From an uncultured Clostridia bacterium (GTDB lineage: Bacteria; Bacillota; Clostridia; Lachnospirales; Cellulosilyticaceae), in contig CALJNR010000019.1 in the NCBI GenBank assembly GCA_937981575.1, positions 22,989-86,988 on the forward strand: a DNA stretch of 64,000 nt. The letters are read 5' to 3'. The notes beneath the pieces were generated by a model that searched no databases, was not told where the DNA came from, and worked only from the letters and a program-made list of their open reading frames with translations. The position numbers and the translations under genes are program-made. This document shows, in pieces, positions 44,640 through 50,758 of this stretch; position 1 is the first letter of the stretch, and the number at the start of each line of letters is the position of its first letter.

Positions 44640-45512
44640 ATGAATAATATTTCAGTTGCTATAATCGGAGGGGACCTAAGGTTTGTACGATTATGTGAGC
44701 TACTTATTCAAAAAGGTATAGATGTTTCAATTTATGGAATTAGTCATCCAGATATTCCTAAAGAGGTTAGGGTATGTGCCTCGCTAAATGAGATAAAAGG
44801 TTGTTCTTATATTATTGGTCCAATACCCTTCTCAAAGGACAATAAGTCTATTTATGCACCTATGAGCAATAAGCATATTTCTATCGAACAATTTTTCTTA
44901 ATAGCTGCTGATAGTTATGTTTTAGGGAGTGTATTAAATCAAAATATGAGAGATTTATTAGATAAGCATAATATTAAATGGCGAGATATTATGGATATGG
45001 ATGAAATAGCAATACTTAATGCAATCCCTACTGCGGAGGGAGCTATTCAATATGCAATGCAAAATAGTGAAATAACCCTTCATGATAGTAAATGTCTTGT
45101 ATTAGGATTCGGGCGTTGTGGCAAAATATTAGCACATAAATTACATGGACTAGGCGCTAAGGTCTCGGTAGAAGCAAGGTCATCTTTAGACCTAGCCTAC
45201 ATTAGCACATATGGTTATACTCCTATTCCACTTTATGATTTAAACAACCATTTAGGAGAATTTGATTTTATATTTAATACAATTCCAGTGGTTATACTAG
45301 ATAGGCAGGCAATTGATTTATTTAAACCAGATGTCGTTTATATAGAACTTGCATCTATGCCAGGGGGTATAGATATCGATTATTGTCATAAAAAGGAAAT
45401 TAACCATGTGCCGGCTCCTAGCCTGCCTGGTATTGTTGCACCTAAAAGCGCTGCTAATATTCTATATCAATGCCTCTTATTGATTTTGCGTAATCAGGGG
45501 GCGAATTTATGA
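44640..45512 (+). CDS. spoVFA: Dipicolinate synthase subunit A
   Basis: The 290-aa subunit works with SpoVFB in the mother cell to oxidise dihydrodipicolinate-type intermediates to dipicolinic acid, which is loaded into the spore core. The N-terminal domain starts VAIIGGDLRFVRLCELLI. A second Rossmann domain holds the nucleotide site VLGFGRCGKILAHKLHGLGA (about residues 151-170). ELASMPGGID and APSLPGIVAPKSAA are conserved near the C-terminus. GGAGG precedes the ATG. Its stop overlaps the spoVFB start in an ATGA. Confidence 0.95.
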   Translation: MNNISVAIIGGDLRFVRLCELLIQKGIDVSIYGISHPDIPKEVRVCASLNEIKGCSYIIGPIPFSKDNKSIYAPMSNKHISIEQFFLIAADSYVLGSVLNQNMRDLLDKHNIKWRDIMDMDEIAILNAIPTAEGAIQYAMQNSEITLHDSKCLVLGFGRCGKILAHKLHGLGAKVSVEARSSLDLAYISTYGYTPIPLYDLNNHLGEFDFIFNTIPVVILDRQAIDLFKPDVVYIELASMPGGIDIDYCHKKEINHVPAPSLPGIVAPKSAANILYQCLLLILRNQGANL

Positions 45513-45898
45513 AAGAACTGAAAGGACTTAAACTCGGGGTTGCTCTATGTGGCTCTTTTTGTACTTTTGCAAAAGCTGTCAAACTTATTGAAGAACTAGT
45601 AGCACTGGAGATTAATGTATTTCCAATTATGTCCAGTAATGCATTTACACTTTCTACACGATTTGGCAATGCCTTAGATTTTGTTAACCAAATTGAAAGC
45701 TTAACAGGCAAATCTATCATTCACACGCTAGTAGAGGCTGAGCCTTTAGGACCTAAAAATATGATAGATGCCCTGCTCATTGCGCCTTGTACAGGGAATA
45801 CGCTGGCAAAGCTAACGTATGCTATTACGGATACGCCTGTTTTACTGGCTGCAAAAGCACTTCTGGTTTCGATTACGGTTAGATTTGACCAGGTTTAA
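45509..45898 (+). CDS. spoVFB: Dipicolinate synthase subunit B, N-terminal part, interrupted by the intervening element
   Basis: The 129-codon frame is native SpoVFB only up to Lys116 (45856). It has the flavoprotein N-terminus LKLGVALCGSFCTFAKAV, AEPLGPKNMIDALLIAPCTGNTLAKL and TDTPVLLAAK. After this the frame reads 13 codons of the inserted element and stops. SpoVFB normally has about 195-200 residues, and the missing end (RNGKPVIIALSTNDGLGLN and on) is found in frame at 50522. Joining at the shared AAAA (45853-45856/50509-50512) gives 197 aa. As it stands the gene should be inactive until excision. Confidence 0.92.
   Translation: MKELKGLKLGVALCGSFCTFAKAVKLIEELVALEINVFPIMSSNAFTLSTRFGNALDFVNQIESLTGKSIIHTLVEAEPLGPKNMIDALLIAPCTGNTLAKLTYAITDTPVLLAAKALLVSITVRFDQV
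45831..45878. other. Left attachment junction of the intervening element
   Basis: The 24 bases before the middle of AAAA (45853-45856) are host spoVFB and the 24 after are element. The element half ends with ATTACGG (45872-45878), the inverse of CCGTAAT at the right end. The stop codon of the AgrC-like gene starts at the next base (45879-45881). Confidence 0.7.
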
Positions 45899-47207
45899 CA
45901 GGGAACAATATTTCTTGAATAAATATATTCTCCCGAACGGTTGTTGAAAGCTTGGTATTTCTATATTGGGTATCCAGAAGCGCCTTAACAGTATGTAATC
46001 CTAGTCCTCTTCCCTCTCCTTTTGTACTAAACCCTTTATGATATAGTGAATTAACATCTTTAATTTTCCCATCAAAAGAATTACTGATTATTACTTTATT
46101 AAGAGTAGATTCAGAGACAATATTTATTATTAGTTTTTTATCTTCGGACAAACTTGCAGCCTCAATGGCATTATCAATAAGTATACCTAAAATTTTACAG
46201 ACATCCAATTCATTCATTTTAAATAAGGGAATATGATTTGGAATATCTAAGCCGAAATCTAGTTTAGTATCTTGAATTTTTACAAGCTTCGCATAAAGCA
46301 TCCCTCGAATCGGAATGCTCCAGACTCTTTTAATGAGTTCTAAGTTTTTATCTGCCTGAAAAACTTCTCCGCCTTTTAAGATTTTTTCTTTAAAATACCT
46401 ATCCAATTTTTCCATATCTTTAAGCTGTATATATCCACCTAAAGTAGCCAGCATATTCATGTAGTCATGTTTGAATACTCTTAGTTCATCATGCTGTTTT
46501 TCAAGGAGATTTGCGTAATCCGTTAATCTTTTGTTTTCTTCTGCCTGAAGCTCTAACTTCATGCTTTTCTTAGTATTTTCATTAATCATATAAAGAAAGA
46601 CAATGCCTAAAACCCCGTATAATGTGAAAATAGCAATGAGAAGAGAAACAATCTGCGTGGATAGATACTCAATTAACGTTCCTAGAATCGTAACATTTAG
46701 ATAGACTACTAATACTGAAATAGCAATATACATATAAAAGTATTTGTTAATTTGGAAACTTCTTAAACTTAATTTTTTATAATTAAGAATACTATGTATA
46801 CTTTTTACCATTAATATTATTGTAAGAATACCTGTAAAGTAAACGGTGATATTTGCAAAGGCGGATTCTTTAACTTGTGCTACCGTAAACTTAAAAATGC
46901 TCATAGCAATAAGCCCCGATACCATATCAGATAGAGCGATTAAAGCAATAATAATTAGGGTTTTTAAAATAGACTTTGATAGATGTCTAGAATAGTTATA
47001 TTCAAGAATGGTTATTAGAATAGAAGAAAAAACAATTGCTGATTTATTTATATTAAAGAGTTTTAGTAAAATAGATAAAATGATCATTACTCCTAAAAAT
47101 ATAATAATATCTTTTTTGGAAGGTTTTAACGTTCCGATTCCAAAAAATAAGATACAAAAAACAATTGATATTAATATAGGTTCTATAAATGTAAAATATA
47201 AAGACAA
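45879..47207 (-). CDS. AgrC-like sensor histidine kinase
   Basis: The 442-aa protein has six or seven transmembrane helices in the first 210 residues. A linker helix leads to a kinase of the AgrC/ComD type: H-box RVFKHDYMNMLATLGGYIQ, N-box DNAIEAAS and G-box GEGRGLGLHTVK. It should detect the cyclic peptide made by the adjacent agrD/agrB. The longest frame starts at TTG 47231, but a second TTG (47207) is 8 bases after GGGAGG and is more likely. No response regulator gene lies in the element, so its partner must be elsewhere. The C-terminus ends at the left att site. Confidence 0.85.
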   Translation of the reverse strand: MSLYFTFIEPILISIVFCILFFGIGTLKPSKKDIIIFLGVMIILSILLKLFNINKSAIVFSSILITILEYNYSRHLSKSILKTLIIIALIALSDMVSGLIAMSIFKFTVAQVKESAFANITVYFTGILTIILMVKSIHSILNYKKLSLRSFQINKYFYMYIAISVLVVYLNVTILGTLIEYLSTQIVSLLIAIFTLYGVLGIVFLYMINENTKKSMKLELQAEENKRLTDYANLLEKQHDELRVFKHDYMNMLATLGGYIQLKDMEKLDRYFKEKILKGGEVFQADKNLELIKRVWSIPIRGMLYAKLVKIQDTKLDFGLDIPNHIPLFKMNELDVCKILGILIDNAIEAASLSEDKKLIINIVSESTLNKVIISNSFDGKIKDVNSLYHKGFSTKGEGRGLGLHTVKALLDTQYRNTKLSTTVRENIFIQEILFPVKPGQI

Positions 47208-47272
47208 ATGCTTTACCTCCCAATAATTCAAAATCTCTGCCTTTTTATTTTACCATATAATTTTAAATATTA

Positions 47273-47333
47273 AATACATTTATAAAAAGTAAGCCTCTAT
47301 TTTTTATAGAGACTTACTTTTTATAAATGTATT
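47273..47333 (-). terminator. Large hairpin between agrD and the AgrC-like gene
   Basis: A 28-bp stem with one mismatch (47273-47300 with 47306-47333) and a T5 loop lies 19 bases after the agrD stop. It has A/T tracts on both sides. It should end most agrBD transcripts and leave the kinase to a separate promoter or to read-through. Confidence 0.75.
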
Positions 47334-47351
47334 ATTCAATTGATCTTATGA

Positions 47352-47519
47352 TTATTTGTCTCGCTTAAATAGTGACTTAGGCATTTTGGGTTCATAAAAG
47401 TACATGAAAAAACACTTATCAGATGATGCTTGCGCCATTCCCTCAGCAATTCTACCTACTACGTGAGCCACTTTCTCTTTTGCAGTAATTCCTCTAGATT
47501 TGTTCATTGAATTTTTCAT
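47352..47519 (-). CDS. agrD: AgrD-like autoinducer peptide precursor
   Basis: This 55-aa prepeptide starts MKNSMNKSRG. It has an amphipathic leader helix (ITAKEKVAHVVGRIAEGMAQ) and a core SSDKCFFMYF followed by the recognition tail YEPKMPKSLFKRDK. The Cys plus YEPKxP pattern is that of clostridial cyclic thiolactone AgrD peptides. Cys36 would form the ring, and AgrB would cut near the Phe/Tyr before EPK; the exact ring size is not certain. AAAGGGG precedes the ATG. The start overlaps the end of agrB by 26 bases. It is too short for usual ORF cut-offs. Confidence 0.87.
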   Translation of the reverse strand: MKNSMNKSRGITAKEKVAHVVGRIAEGMAQASSDKCFFMYFYEPKMPKSLFKRDK

Positions 47520-48102
47520 AATTTTTGTACCCCTTTCTTAAAATGAAATATATTACAGGTGTGGTAAATATTGATTCAATCAATACGCCACATGTAATCA
47601 GGTTTTTAACTGTTTCATCTTTAGTGACCAGCATTATAAAGAATAGAACAGTGGTGGCTGTAATAGCCTGAAATTTAAGTTTATATCTATGTTTAGCACT
47701 AACAAGTGGGCGTTCTTCTGTGTCTGCTGGTGCATATAACATAATGAGAAGAAGACTTAAGCTAAATAAACTTATGCGAACAGCCAGATTGATAGGAAGG
47801 TAAAGGCATAATAAGGTCCCTCCTAAAAAAAGCATGATATTAAGCAGCGTACAAATGAAAGTAGATGAGGCATGCGCTCCTGCCGCAAAAATCCGTAAAG
47901 TAACGAAACTTAGAAATAAAATCCCTAACGGTTTTACAATACCTAGCATCCAGGCAACGCCTAGTAATAATAAAAATTTAAAAAGATTGATAAAGAAAAC
48001 TTCAATGCCATATTGAATAATCTCCAGTTCTTCTTCGCTTTTAGAAGCGTTATTTTGAATAAACTGCATCATACGCTTGGTTAAATAAAGTGACAAATCC
48101 AT
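47494..48102 (-). CDS. agrB: AgrB-like peptide-processing membrane endopeptidase
   Basis: The 202-aa membrane protein cleaves and cyclises AgrD. The catalytic pair is His77 in AAGAHASS and Cys84 in TFICTLL, the same numbering as in S. aureus AgrB. A conserved YAPADTEERPL loop follows, and four to six hydrophobic helices are visible. ATG 48102 follows AGGTG; a GTG three codons upstream is possible. The gene is first in a sigma-A-driven agrB-agrD transcript. Confidence 0.92.
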   Translation of the reverse strand: MDLSLYLTKRMMQFIQNNASKSEEELEIIQYGIEVFFINLFKFLLLLGVAWMLGIVKPLGILFLSFVTLRIFAAGAHASSTFICTLLNIMLFLGGTLLCLYLPINLAVRISLFSLSLLLIMLYAPADTEERPLVSAKHRYKLKFQAITATTVLFFIMLVTKDETVKNLITCGVLIESIFTTPVIYFILRKGYKNYEKFNEQI

Positions 48103-48154
48103 CCTGTTCACCTACTTTCTACATGCACTTCCATAAAATGTATTATTTGATATT

Positions 48155-48183
48155 AATATAACAAATGTATAGTTTTTTGTCAA
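48155..48183 (-). promoter_or_regulatory. Sigma-A promoter of agrBD
   Basis: On the minus strand TTGACA (48178-48183), exactly 17 bp, then TATATT (48155-48160). This predicts expression during vegetative growth, unlike the recombinase promoter. The remaining gene-free bases from 48103 to 48448 hold only this and the terminator at 48332. Confidence 0.8.
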
Positions 48184-48331
48184 TAATATTTTGTTAATTT
48201 TTCCATTTTTTTATATTTTTCCAAGAATTTGTGTTTGATTTTACATAAACATGTATAAGTATACTTTGATAACACGCTTGTATCCTGTATTTAGGTAATC
48301 TGATAGACAAGTTTTCATTGATTGATAAGCA

Positions 48332-48383
48332 AAAGCCGCATAGCACGTAGAAAAAACAACTTTCTAAGTATTATGCGGGCTTT
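48332..48383 (-). terminator. Terminator after the small basic protein gene
   Basis: AAAGCCGCATA pairs with TATGCGGGCTTT (one bulge), and the inner part GTAGAAA/TTTCTAAG adds to the stem. T-rich sequence follows on the minus strand. Confidence 0.65.
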
Positions 48384-48448
48384 ATGAATATACATTTTTA
48401 CAATTCAAAAAAGATACTTTCTATTCAATAATGATTCATATCCTATTA

Positions 48449-48634
48449 TTACTTTTGCTTCATAGTTTGGAAAAAGTGTTTTTGCTGTTCAAATGGCAAT
48501 TGCTTCAGTTTTTCCAGTGTCTTACGCAGCACGTACTCATTAAACTCAATATAGGACTGAGATTCTTTGACATCTTCCAATAATTTATCATCTTTAGTAA
48601 AAAAACATATCTTATAAGCAGATTTTTTATGCAT
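48449..48634 (-). CDS. Small basic protein, candidate excision (directionality) factor
   Basis: The 61-aa protein MHKKSAYKICFFTKDD... is rich in Lys and Glu, with two predicted helices (EFNEYVLRKTLEKLKQL and EQQKHFFQTMK). ATG 48634 follows GGGAGG; an in-frame ATG six codons upstream has no ribosome site. It is divergent from the recombinase across a 225-base gap and is the only other small gene on the element. Serine recombinases of sporulation elements often need a small partner for excision (SprB with SprA in SP-beta). That role here is positional inference; no homology is seen. Confidence 0.55.
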   Translation of the reverse strand: MHKKSAYKICFFTKDDKLLEDVKESQSYIEFNEYVLRKTLEKLKQLPFEQQKHFFQTMKQK

Positions 48635-48754
48635 ATGTGCCTCCCTGTGCAATCTCTTGCTAAATCATATGGCGCATGTCGTTGTCCTATTCGGATATTT
48701 AGTTTGTTGTATGAAAATTGACAAAAAAGCAAATAAGAACTCTTATCCCAGCAA

Positions 48755-48783
48755 TCATTTATTGTTTGCAAACTACATACATA
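48755..48783 (+). promoter_or_regulatory. Sigma-E-like promoter of the recombinase
   Basis: TCATTTA (48755-48761), 14 bp, then CATACATA (48776-48783). Compared with the B. subtilis sigma-E pattern KMATATT-N14-CATACAMT this gives 5/7 and 7/8 matches at the right spacing. The B. subtilis skin recombinase gene is also sigma-E controlled. Confidence 0.5.
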
Positions 48784-48859
48784 TGAATTAAATAACTGTT
48801 ATAAAGCCATATGGTCTAAATCACTCATGTTACTTAGGTGTGTTAGGAGGATTAAACCG

Positions 48860-50479
48860 ATGAAGATCGCAATTTATGCCAGGAAATCCCGTACCACTGA
48901 AAAAGGCGAGTCCATTGCCAACCAGATCGAACTTTGCAAGCATTATGCAGAACTTCACTTTCAAGATTCTGAATGTGACATTTACCAAGACGAGGGATAT
49001 AGCGGTGGAGATATCAATAGACCATCTTTTTTGGAACTTACTGAGGCTCTAAAAGCTGGCAGGTATCATGTACTCATCTGCTATAGACTAGACCGAATCA
49101 GCCGGAATGTACTAGATTTTTCTGCAACTTTAGATATGCTGACTAAAAATAATGTCGCCTTTGTATCTATAAAAGAAAACTTTGATACAACGTCGCCAAT
49201 GGGTCGTGCTATGCTGCATATTTCCTCGGTTTTTGCACAGTTAGAACGCGAAACGATTGCTGAGCGTATTCGTGATAACATGCAGGAGCTTGCTAAGACT
49301 GGCCGCTGGCTTGGGGGGACTGTTCCTGTAGGTTATAAAGCTATTAGGCTAAAAGAACAATCTGATAGTGGGAAAATTAAAAATTACTCCATACTTCAGA
49401 TAGATAAAAAGAAGGTTTTTTTTGTAGAGATGCTTTTTAAACAATATTTACAGTTTAAAAGTTTATCAAAGCTTGAAAGGTACCTTATAGGTAATAGTAT
49501 TCAGACAGATAGAGGAAAGTACTATCATCCCCAAGTGCTTCGCAGTATTCTCTCTAACCCTGTATACTGCTGCGCAGACCAGGAAGTCTATCAGTATTTT
49601 AGTAAGCTTAGCAGCTGCCTTTCCAACTCCCGAAGTGATTTTAACGGAAGGCATGGTTTAATGGTCTATAATAAAAACAGAAAAGGGAAGCTGATTTATA
49701 AAAATAATGCTTCAGAGTGGATTGTTGCTGTTGGAGCACATGATCCTATTATTGACAGCAAAACGTGGCTGATGGTTCAAAGACAGCTTGTCGCAAATGC
49801 CCACAAAGTGCATTCACACGCTTCTTCTTCCGTAGCACTTTTAAGCGGCATTTTATTCTGCAAAGCGTGTGGGGCAAAGATGCTGGTAATGAATCAATCG
49901 GTGCTGAAAGATGGGACCAAAAGCTACATTTACCGCTGTTCAAATAAACTTAAAAGCCGCGGGAACCTTTGCAATATAGAAAACGCCAAAGGCCATTACT
50001 TAGATGAGTATGTTTTGAAAAGTATCATGGAGCTATTGATGGATCAAAAGTGGCTGCTTGAAAAGCTTACTAAAGTATATCAAGATTATGACAGCTGCTT
50101 TTTTGATACTAAAAGTGAAAGACGTGTTATAGAAGAGCAAGTGGTTCAAAAAGAAAAAACTTTGGCAAAATTGATTCGCTTATCAGCAGAAAATGAGGAT
50201 GTTCTTCTTGAATCATCTTATGAAAATGAAATAAAAAAAGTTAAAAACGAAATGATGCATCTTAGGGAGAAATTGAGTCTCACAAAAACAGTCATTGCTG
50301 AAGTAGTGCCTCCACTATCAAATGACTCTCAGCTGTTTGATTTAATAACTGATATCCGGCAATATCGCAATCAAAAAATTAATAATGAATTACAGCACCT
50401 CATTAAATCAATCATTAAATATGCTAAATGGAACGGGAATACCCTCTTCCTCTATTTATACGATAAGAAAAATGAATAA
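48860..50479 (+). CDS. Large serine recombinase
   Basis: This 539-aa site-specific recombinase has catalytic Ser10 in AIYARKSRTTEKG, then YRLDRISRN and FAQLERETIAERIRDNM of the resolvase domain (about 1-150). A recombinase domain follows (TVPVGYKAI, HPQVLRSILSNPVY). A zinc ribbon holds CKACGAK and later CSNKLKSRGNLCNI, and a C-terminal coiled coil occupies about 420-490. This is the SpoIVCA/SprA type. The longest frame begins upstream, but ATG 48860 has GGAGG at 9 bases. It ends 8 bases before the right attachment arm and should excise the element that splits spoVFB. Confidence 0.92.
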   Translation: MKIAIYARKSRTTEKGESIANQIELCKHYAELHFQDSECDIYQDEGYSGGDINRPSFLELTEALKAGRYHVLICYRLDRISRNVLDFSATLDMLTKNNVAFVSIKENFDTTSPMGRAMLHISSVFAQLERETIAERIRDNMQELAKTGRWLGGTVPVGYKAIRLKEQSDSGKIKNYSILQIDKKKVFFVEMLFKQYLQFKSLSKLERYLIGNSIQTDRGKYYHPQVLRSILSNPVYCCADQEVYQYFSKLSSCLSNSRSDFNGRHGLMVYNKNRKGKLIYKNNASEWIVAVGAHDPIIDSKTWLMVQRQLVANAHKVHSHASSSVALLSGILFCKACGAKMLVMNQSVLKDGTKSYIYRCSNKLKSRGNLCNIENAKGHYLDEYVLKSIMELLMDQKWLLEKLTKVYQDYDSCFFDTKSERRVIEEQVVQKEKTLAKLIRLSAENEDVLLESSYENEIKKVKNEMMHLREKLSLTKTVIAEVVPPLSNDSQLFDLITDIRQYRNQKINNELQHLIKSIIKYAKWNGNTLFLYLYDKKNE

Positions 50480-50486
50480 GACGCCG

Positions 50487-50534
50487 CCGTAATATTAAGC
50501 AGGGTTGTAAAATCGCTTATGAGAAACGGCAAAC
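50487..50534. other. Right attachment junction of the intervening element
   Basis: The element half starts with CCGTAAT (50487-50493) and runs to AAAA (50509-50512). The host half continues with spoVFB codons. Joined in a circle with 45857-45878, the two element halves form a 48-bp imperfect dyad with 14 of 24 paired positions, centred in the AAAA. Confidence 0.7.
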
Positions 50535-50758
50535 CTGTAATTATTGCACTATCCACTAATGATGGGCTAGGGCTGAACTTCAAAAATATAGGAACGCTGA
50601 TGCCTAACCAAAATGTATATTTTGTACCCTTTGGGCAGGATGATAGTATCAACAAGCCATGCTCACTCGTAGCTGACTTAAGCAAAGTTCCGGAAACAAT
50701 TGAAATGGCACTTAAACACCATCAGATACAGCCGATACTCATTCAACATGAACCATAA
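50519..50758 (+). CDS. spoVFB: Dipicolinate synthase subunit B, C-terminal part
   Basis: The sequence MRNGKPVIIALSTNDGLGLN, NIGTLM, VYFVPFGQDD, SLVADLSKVPETIEMAL and QIQPILI is the C-terminal third of SpoVFB. The ATG is internal in the native protein. No good ribosome site precedes it and the frame is open further upstream (TCG CTT ATG AGA), so this is not an independent gene. After excision it continues from Lys116 of the N-terminal part as S-L-M-R-N-G. A terminator follows, which ends the spoVF operon. Confidence 0.9.
   Translation: MRNGKPVIIALSTNDGLGLNFKNIGTLMPNQNVYFVPFGQDDSINKPCSLVADLSKVPETIEMALKHHQIQPILIQHEP

Follow-up and report, generated by a model that had tools for sequence, protein, structure and literature searches.

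A dipicolinate synthase gene split by a probably excisable, skin-like element with agr genes in a Cellulosilyticaceae genome

In Bacillus subtilis, spoVFB (here dpaB, encoding dipicolinate synthase subunit B) is known to be expressed in the mother cell. The skin element, which splits sigK in B. subtilis and C. difficile, has a serine recombinase and a small directionality factor, and its removal restores a mother-cell gene exactly. In Bacillus weihenstephanensis KBAB4, the element vfbin splits spoVFB, the same gene as in the locus reported here; it is reported to rearrange during sporulation and to carry phage-related genes (Abe et al. 2013, as relayed in PMC4191935, PMC10747680 and PMC6957869). 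As described, gin in gerE of B. cereus ATCC10987 is a non-prophage element, also in a mother-cell gene, that spans 28.6 kb and carries 31 genes and three recombinases, with no agr genes named in the text covered (PMC5595907), and yin in the spore gene yabG of C. botulinum V73 is prophage-like, with a recombinase and a putative directionality factor (PMC10747680). On mobile DNA, agr3 of the C. difficile phage phiCDHM1 comprises agrD, agrB and agrC without a response regulator, within a 54-kb myovirus genome rather than in an element that splits a spore gene (PMC3901668).

Here, we analyse a 64,000-nucleotide window of an uncultured Clostridia bacterium of the family Cellulosilyticaceae (genome G000), in which dpaB is split by a 4,656-bp element. 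We consider it, with a probability of roughly 0.8, a skin-like element whose own recombinase would cut it out of the mother-cell chromosome during sporulation, restoring a 197-codon gene. Like skin, it has a serine recombinase and a mother-cell target that its removal would restore exactly, and a 61-aa open reading frame (ORF) is the candidate counterpart of the directionality factor; by analogy, this small ORF of conserved position may be likened to CD1234 in the skin element of C. difficile (PMC5025042). It differs from skin in target gene, size, agr cargo and the absence of detected virion genes, and from vfbin, which is described as carrying phage-related genes, in that no virion genes were found in it. 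With gin it shares its non-prophage nature, with yin a clostridial spore gene as target and with agr3 an agr set lacking a response regulator, but it differs from gin in size, gene content and, going by the genes named for gin, agr genes, from yin in target and in not being prophage-like, and from agr3 in lying within a split spore gene outside a phage genome. In the literature open to search we found neither agr cargo in a spore-gene element nor its family-wide recurrence. The earlier note regarded a clostridial spoVFB element with such content as apparently undescribed and named vfbin as a Bacillus precedent for a spoVFB element. The element would unite programmed rearrangement of mother-cell DNA with peptide quorum sensing on mobile DNA, which the searchable papers treat separately.

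The proposed split of dpaB after codon 116, with 81 C-terminal codons beyond 4,656 bp, is exact to the base. In a search with the subunit B profile (TIGR02852) the two halves score 128.6 and 106.3 bits and cover profile positions 2–113 and 113–187 of 187, neither reaching the cut-off of 229 bits by itself. The AAAA tetranucleotides at the two boundaries (Table 1) are spaced by 4,656 bp, and deleting exactly this length from the sequence, as had been claimed, leaves an open frame of 197 codons that reads ..VLLAAK-SLMRNGKPV.. across the join; the intact dpaB genes of G001, G005, G006 and G020 read ..LAAKSL(M/L)RNGKP.. at this point, matching the rejoined AAKSLMRNG. As the identical break occurs in other genomes of the family and in database proteins, it is not due to chance. 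The predicted sigma-K-like motif 5' of dpaA has a similar counterpart 5' of dpaA in G002; its hand-made pattern, which has 6 matches on both strands of the 64-kb window, is, like that for sigma-E, a consensus motif trimmed to a pattern of our own.

Table 1. Features of the split dpaB locus, in window coordinates.
Feature	Position	Strand	Evidence
Sigma-K-like promoter motif (predicted) 5' of dpaA	44575..44602	+	AC-N16-CATACTCTA
dpaA (spoVFA), intact in window	44640..45512	+	NF006162, 305.9 bits (cut-off 261)
dpaB (spoVFB) 5' half, codons 1-116	45509..45856	+	TIGR02852, NF006161; frame continues to 45898
attL region	45843..45884	+	Crossover inside AAAA 45853-45856; aligned with G002, G004, G007 and empty G001 site; dyad
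Intervening element, 4,656 bp, 32.9% G+C	45857..50512	not assigned	
agrC-like sensor histidine kinase	45879..47231	-	PF14501; best full-length model NF046015 AgrC, 165 bits (cut-off 500 not reached)
Long hairpin, agrD/agrC gap	47280..47326	-	-38.1 kcal/mol, z -11.6 for 47232-47351
agrD, cyclic peptide precursor	47352..47519	-	TIGR04223, 26.3 bits (cut-off 19); alignment
agrB, peptide-processing protease	47494..48111	-	PF04647, 133.8 bits (cut-off 23)
Sigma-A-type promoter-like site 5' of agrB	48155..48183	-	TTGACA-17-TATATT, 11/12
61-aa ORF, candidate recombination directionality factor	48449..48634	-	Homologue similarly placed in G002
Sigma-E-like motif (predicted) 5' of 61-aa ORF	48664..48690	-	Sole match inside element
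Large serine recombinase, 539 aa	48860..50479	+	PF00239, PF07508, PF13408; tree
attR region	50490..50530	+	Crossover inside AAAA 50509-50512; alignment with relatives; dyad
dpaB (spoVFB) 3' half, codons 117-197 and stop	50513..50758	+	TIGR02852, NF006161

Between the halves lie, as the earlier note had it, a large serine recombinase, recognized by three domain families, and cargo, which is agrB-agrD-agrC. The element thus has its own site-specific recombinase, and deleting it precisely from one short repeat to the other brings the two halves back into frame. When element ends are joined, the best dyad centre falls on one shared AA at the point of crossover in all four elements tested, with 119 (in G000, where the dyad is weakest), 27, 3 and 0 of 5000 shuffles equally good; the dyad is clear in G007. 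These ends fit the geometry of a serine integrase, with attP dyad arms around a central dinucleotide. Neither an excised nor a circular junction is present in the G000 assembly at up to 3 mismatches. No virion or packaging genes were found in the five element ORFs (Pfam and NCBIfam, with PHROGs for two of them), which rules out a prophage as description of the 4,656-bp element, although relatives at the dpaB site are prophages. Neither the recombinase nor a DpaB half found relatives when scanned against viral contigs.

The 61-aa ORF has weak homology to its G002 counterpart (phmmer E 1.5e-5, among 97 small ORFs), and an ORF of similar size and position in the G018 element is 15% identical; a small ORF thus occupies a matching position in three elements (G000, G002 and G018). 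No PHROGs family was found for it, and a sequence search against solved structures returned chance matches only. A sigma-E-like motif is also present 5' of the G002 homologue, for a pattern that was devised after viewing these regions and has 6 matches in the 64-kb window.

The agr locus is incomplete (B, D and C only), with no agrA or other response regulator within the element; five LytTR genes lie elsewhere in the genome, one of them inside a complete agr locus on contig C12. AgrB had no match in a sequence search against solved structures. The promoter-like site 5' of agrB is the best of 26 such sites in the element, a count that is uninformative given the 22.5 expected from shuffles. Among the matches listed, ten contigs presumably hold a broken DpaB together with a recombinase of the dpaB clade; AgrC appears for three of them, and Agr is not a fixed component of dpaB elements.

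Of 24 genomes of the family, 6 have a dpaB that is split or halved at the same site as in G000, and some also have dpaA or sigK split. Of 36 short proteins among 120 DpaB matches listed, 33–34 break at the G000 site, counts among listed DpaB or recombinase matches not being population frequencies. Elements of the G000 type are present in two further species of the genus, those of G002 and G004, the latter judged by the element ends and by a database contig whose DpaB half is identical. The comparison with relatives lacking the element that the earlier note had suggested bears out its reading of the join: the congener G001 has an empty site and a whole dpaAB, and intact genes read through. In the recombinase tree, enzymes cluster by target gene and that of G000 is kin to the sigK 'skin' recombinases of other clostridia; at related loci, the recombinase lies immediately 5' of the SigK 3' half in 9 of 13.

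The split halves are free of stops, with pN/pS similar to that of intact genes; pN/pS is 0.15 between two split genes, and a split and an intact gene differ by dN 0.053 and dS 0.69. These comparisons support purifying selection on both halves. Between G000 and G002 the recombinases are 54% identical and the C-terminal parts of DpaA 89%; as the element genes are far more diverged than the host genes, the two insertions may be separate, and selection on dpaB may partly predate the split.

It is unlikely that the element merely inactivated dpaB, with a paralogue providing subunit B and excision unneeded for dipicolinate, even though the earlier note had named a second intact spoVFB as counting against its own reading and the assembly literally holds a full-length gene of this type (G000:C78:19308-19865; TIGR02852, 250.5 bits, above cut-off). 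This gene shares 41% and 48% identity with the two split halves and is found in 5/5 genomes of the genus examined; we read it as an older paralogue that could bypass the split dpaB, so that excision may not be needed. Yet it has no adjoining dpaA and sits amid cobalamin-type genes (named by eye), G001 has it despite an intact dpaAB operon, and the halves in G000 have kept the stop-free, constrained state described above. In Niameybacter (G007), moreover, a split dpaA and a split dpaB were the sole copies found, and no dpaB paralogue was found; this speaks for developmental excision in the family. The original proposal, a skin-like spoVFB element excised for dipicolinate, is partly supported: matching att sites, an intact recombinase, the empty G001 site and selection on the halves back a precisely removable element, while its excision and the need for this in making dipicolinate are predictions.

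We also give little credence to an ordinary integrative element for which dpaB is a landing site, perhaps with low-frequency movement in and out, excision unlinked to sporulation and agr as plain cargo. Related recombinases do occur in prophages, one lies in an apparent ABC-transporter gene, and the sigma-E motif is soft, but most of the targets seen are spore genes that act late in the mother cell (dpaA, dpaB, sigK), as in the proven systems (PMC6957869), and no transfer gene was found among the five element ORFs (Pfam, NCBIfam). An assembly or binning artefact is next to impossible: although the G000 draft has 143 contigs and an estimated contamination of 4.07%, the identical architecture recurs in database proteins, in G002 (100% complete, 30 contigs) and on a 168,893-bp contig, the last two being independent assemblies that exclude a chimera in practice.

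In the preferred reading, the element's own serine recombinase would excise it in the mother cell, with the 61-aa protein likely serving as directionality factor. Sigma-E would activate the small divergent gene, whose product would make the recombinase excise rather than integrate; the element would depart as a circle, and sigma-K would next transcribe the whole dpaAB operon. The spore would retain the unrearranged chromosome, and the element would therefore be inherited. The agrBDC genes are likely expressed in growing cells, and the cyclic peptide from this cassette would be sensed by the AgrC that the element encodes. With agrA missing from the element, the signal would pass to a host response regulator, plausibly tuning the decision to sporulate, on which excision of the element itself would depend. 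More tentatively, this could be a quorum-sensing version of skin: a minimal cassette free of virion genes whose internal cell-density signal governs entry into sporulation, its own excision and dipicolinate, in a family whose dipicolinate synthase and sigK genes are repeatedly split by related recombinases.

Across the family, a single codon of dpaB is found as an empty site, occupied by a 46-kb prophage (in Niameybacter) or occupied by the 4.7-kb agr cassette, and these states make it testable how prophages were tamed to become developmental cassettes and what retains them. As a separate observation, contigs of G013 carry dpaB halves in odd orientations.

The window spans bases 22989-86988 of contig C19 in the draft assembly of the source genome (3.56 Mb in 143 contigs, 92.66% complete, 4.07% contamination). 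In it, the unbroken dpaA overlaps the start of dpaB (spoVFB, dipicolinate synthase subunit B) by four bases. The latter is interrupted between codons 116 and 117 by an element whose length, 4,656 bp, follows from two AAAA runs, one at 45853-45856 and the other at 50509-50512. Joining both halves gives a stop-free frame of 197 codons, so the exact in-frame split claimed in the earlier note holds, and a relative without the element, G001 of the same genus, carries the empty site (GCTGCAAAATCTCTTATGAGAAATGG). The note would count a second whole spoVFB as refuting its reading; a full-length DpaB-type gene is indeed present on another contig (G000:C78:19308-19865; 9296-9883 of extracted locus L007), and its product is 41% identical to one dpaB half and 48% to the other. 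It is an orphan among cobalamin-type genes (named by eye) and recurs in all five genus genomes examined. Because of this paralogue, we do not claim that excision is necessary.

Features of the split dpaB locus and its element (window coordinates)
Feature	Coordinates	Strand	Details
dpaA	44640-45512		unbroken
dpaB codons 1-116	to 45856		
Element	45857-50512		predicted to be excised in sporulation
AgrC-like kinase		minus	NF046015, 165 bits; model staphylococcal, its cut-off of 500 not reached
agrD-agrC hairpin	47280-47326		near-perfect
agrD		minus	TIGR04223, above cut-off
agrB		minus	PF04647, 133.8 bits
61-aa ORF (candidate recombination directionality factor)			between agrB and recombinase, divergent from the latter
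Serine recombinase		plus	Ser of YARKS motif at residue 10
dpaB codons 117-197	from 50513		

In a comparison of 24 family genomes, six show a dpaB that is split or halved at this position: G000 (the source), G002, G004, G007 and, with 3' halves only, G013 and G018. A full-length dpaB other than the genus paralogue occurs in 15, three of which (G012, G015, G019) have no dpaA match above 21 bits; the paralogue is the only dpaB-type gene of G003, G023 has just a weak CoaBC-like match, and none was found in G014. The G002 element (4,742 bp) has the same agrB-D-C and recombinase content, and that of G007 spans 45.8 kb with terminase, portal and major head genes. Both G004 contigs end about 100 bases into the element, their ends coding for the C-termini of AgrC and recombinase; on a 168,893-bp database contig, an AgrC and a recombinase bearing these C-termini occur along with a DpaB half that matches the one in G004 exactly. 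A UbiA-type prenyltransferase gene lies near the recombinase in the G018 element (G018:C102, L058 836-1795), so cargo varies.

The neighbouring dpaA is itself split at profile residues 128-136 in two genomes, by 47 kb that include tail fibre and endolysin genes in G002 and by 23.5 kb with terminase and portal genes in G008, and near residue 265 in G007 (47.6 kb with a baseplate gene); its 5' half adjoins a recombinase in G013, and G003 and G022 hold fragments. The sigK gene, home of the known skin element, is whole in the source genome and split in G001, G002, G010 and G022. Counted per genome, G002 thus has three such elements, of 47, 4.7 and 67 kb in dpaA, dpaB and sigK respectively, within G002:C6:762236-927508 (L161, L052, L163, L174), and G007 has two, back-to-back prophages of roughly 46-48 kb with different recombinases (G007:C11:417104-512067; L055, L056, L164, L172). 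In G010, probably Epulopiscium sp. Nele67-Bin005, about 30 kb lie in sigK and a skin-type recombinase adjoins its 3' half (G010:C70:3650-33901; L170, L175). Two adjoining sigK pieces, perhaps frameshifts, occur at G005:C33:183427-184069 and G018:C47:6320-6962.

A database search with the 116-residue DpaB half matched at least 120 proteins, and among the 120 listed 36 are shorter than 160 residues; a simple rule classed 34 as broken at the site (one, P0231, may be a frameshift) and two as intact beyond it. The break residues are AAN or ATN in 31 of the 34, and AAK in the source genome and one other. At least ten contigs, including that of the source genome, appear to combine a broken DpaB with a recombinase of the dpaB clade. 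This clade was defined in a tree of 60 recombinases, in which the targets of many database sequences are not known: those known to lie in dpaB form one clade of 28 (100/99), three dpaA recombinases a separate one (99/99), and twelve sigK recombinases plus one of unknown target a third (13 sequences, 98/89), with the recombinase of the second dpaA site, in G007, a far outlier. At 13 related loci of named organisms, the recombinase lies directly upstream of the SigK 3' half in nine and of something other than SigK in two, and no full recombinase ORF was found in two. The element recombinase is of the skin kind, directed at a different gene. Not all its relatives target spore genes, as one lies at the end of an apparently broken ABC-transporter ATPase gene (G005:C22, L116 878-3120).

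When the element ends of G000, G002, G004 and G007 were joined and scored for dyad symmetry over 25 positions, the best centre was the identical AA at the predicted crossover in all four. The dyad is nearly perfect in G007 (23 paired positions) and poorest in G000 (14), with 16 in G002 and 17 in G004; 0, 119, 27 and 3 of 5,000 shuffles each, respectively, did equally well.

For the joined dpaB, a comparison of the two split genes of G000 and G002 gives a pN/pS of 0.15; split G002 differs from the intact G001 by dN 0.053 and dS 0.69, the only pair in which dS does not exceed 1. Between G000 and G002 the element genes (recombinase 54% identical, AgrB 61%, AgrC 51%, AgrD 63%, 61-aa ORF 30% over 46 residues) are less alike than DpaA (89% over the C-terminal 167 residues), so that the two insertions were possibly separate events and selection on dpaB may be partly older than the split.

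The AgrD peptides of G000 and G002 share SSDKCF and EPKMPKSL and differ in the residues between (FMYFY and LIGFH), a variable middle expected for peptides with their own specificity. The element lacks agrA; elsewhere the genome has five LytTR genes, one within a complete agrB-D-C-A locus on contig C12, whose AgrD has Ser in the KCF/KSF motif (L009 5257-5415), as opposed to Cys in the element AgrD. A sigma-A-type site matching 11 of 12 positions upstream of agrB scores highest among the 26 such sites of the element, and shuffled sequences contain no fewer of them. The agrD-agrC gap forms a long hairpin (-38.1 kcal/mol, z -11.6); the corresponding G002 gap also folds well (-26.9 kcal/mol, without control). 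Element-type AgrC forms a small group: ten of the 30 matches listed reach 50% identity, the next best being 37%, and five of the ten appear to share a contig with a recombinase or broken DpaB. Within the 24 family genomes this level is reached only in G000 and G002 (next 27-30%). As AgrC is among the matches listed for just three of the ten contigs that seemingly pair broken DpaB with recombinase, agr is not a fixed part of the cassette.

Intervening elements are already described in spoVFB (vfbin), spoVR (vrin), gerE (gin), yabG (yin) and spsM (SP-beta), according to PMC4191935, PMC10747680, PMC5595907 and PMC6957869; spsM insertions of 4 to 20 kb are mentioned (PMC6957869), so small size is not new by itself. 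Among the best-ranked matches of the searchable literature, which included few subscription papers, we found no account of an element splitting dpaA or dpaB in this family, nor of an agr cassette inside a spore-gene element.

Several clostridia sporulate less after agrBD disruption, and agrB1D1 of C. difficile, without cognate agrA or agrC, promotes sporulation (PMC10602386); in C. acetobutylicum, Agr affects granulose, itself required for maximal spore formation (PMC10301443). Phage phiCDHM1 carries agrD, agrB and agrC and lacks the response regulator; the authors of that study propose that a host AgrA takes up the relay (PMC3901668). By analogy with these systems, the element cassette would most likely feed a host sporulation regulator; possibly, the agr genes are instead cargo serving another role.

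In C. difficile, the 72-residue CD1234, under sigma-E and SpoIIID, ensures that skin is excised in the mother cell only (PMC5025042). By analogy, sigma-E would set off excision of the element, and sigma-K would then transcribe dpaAB. A sigma-E-like pattern, a lead only since it was composed after these regions were inspected, has its single match in the G000 element directly before the 61-aa ORF, and in G002 two matches before the homologue and one more inside the recombinase gene; it occurs in 2 of 2,000 simulated 60-base stretches and six times in the 64-kb window. A sigma-K-like motif lies upstream of dpaA in both G000 and G002.
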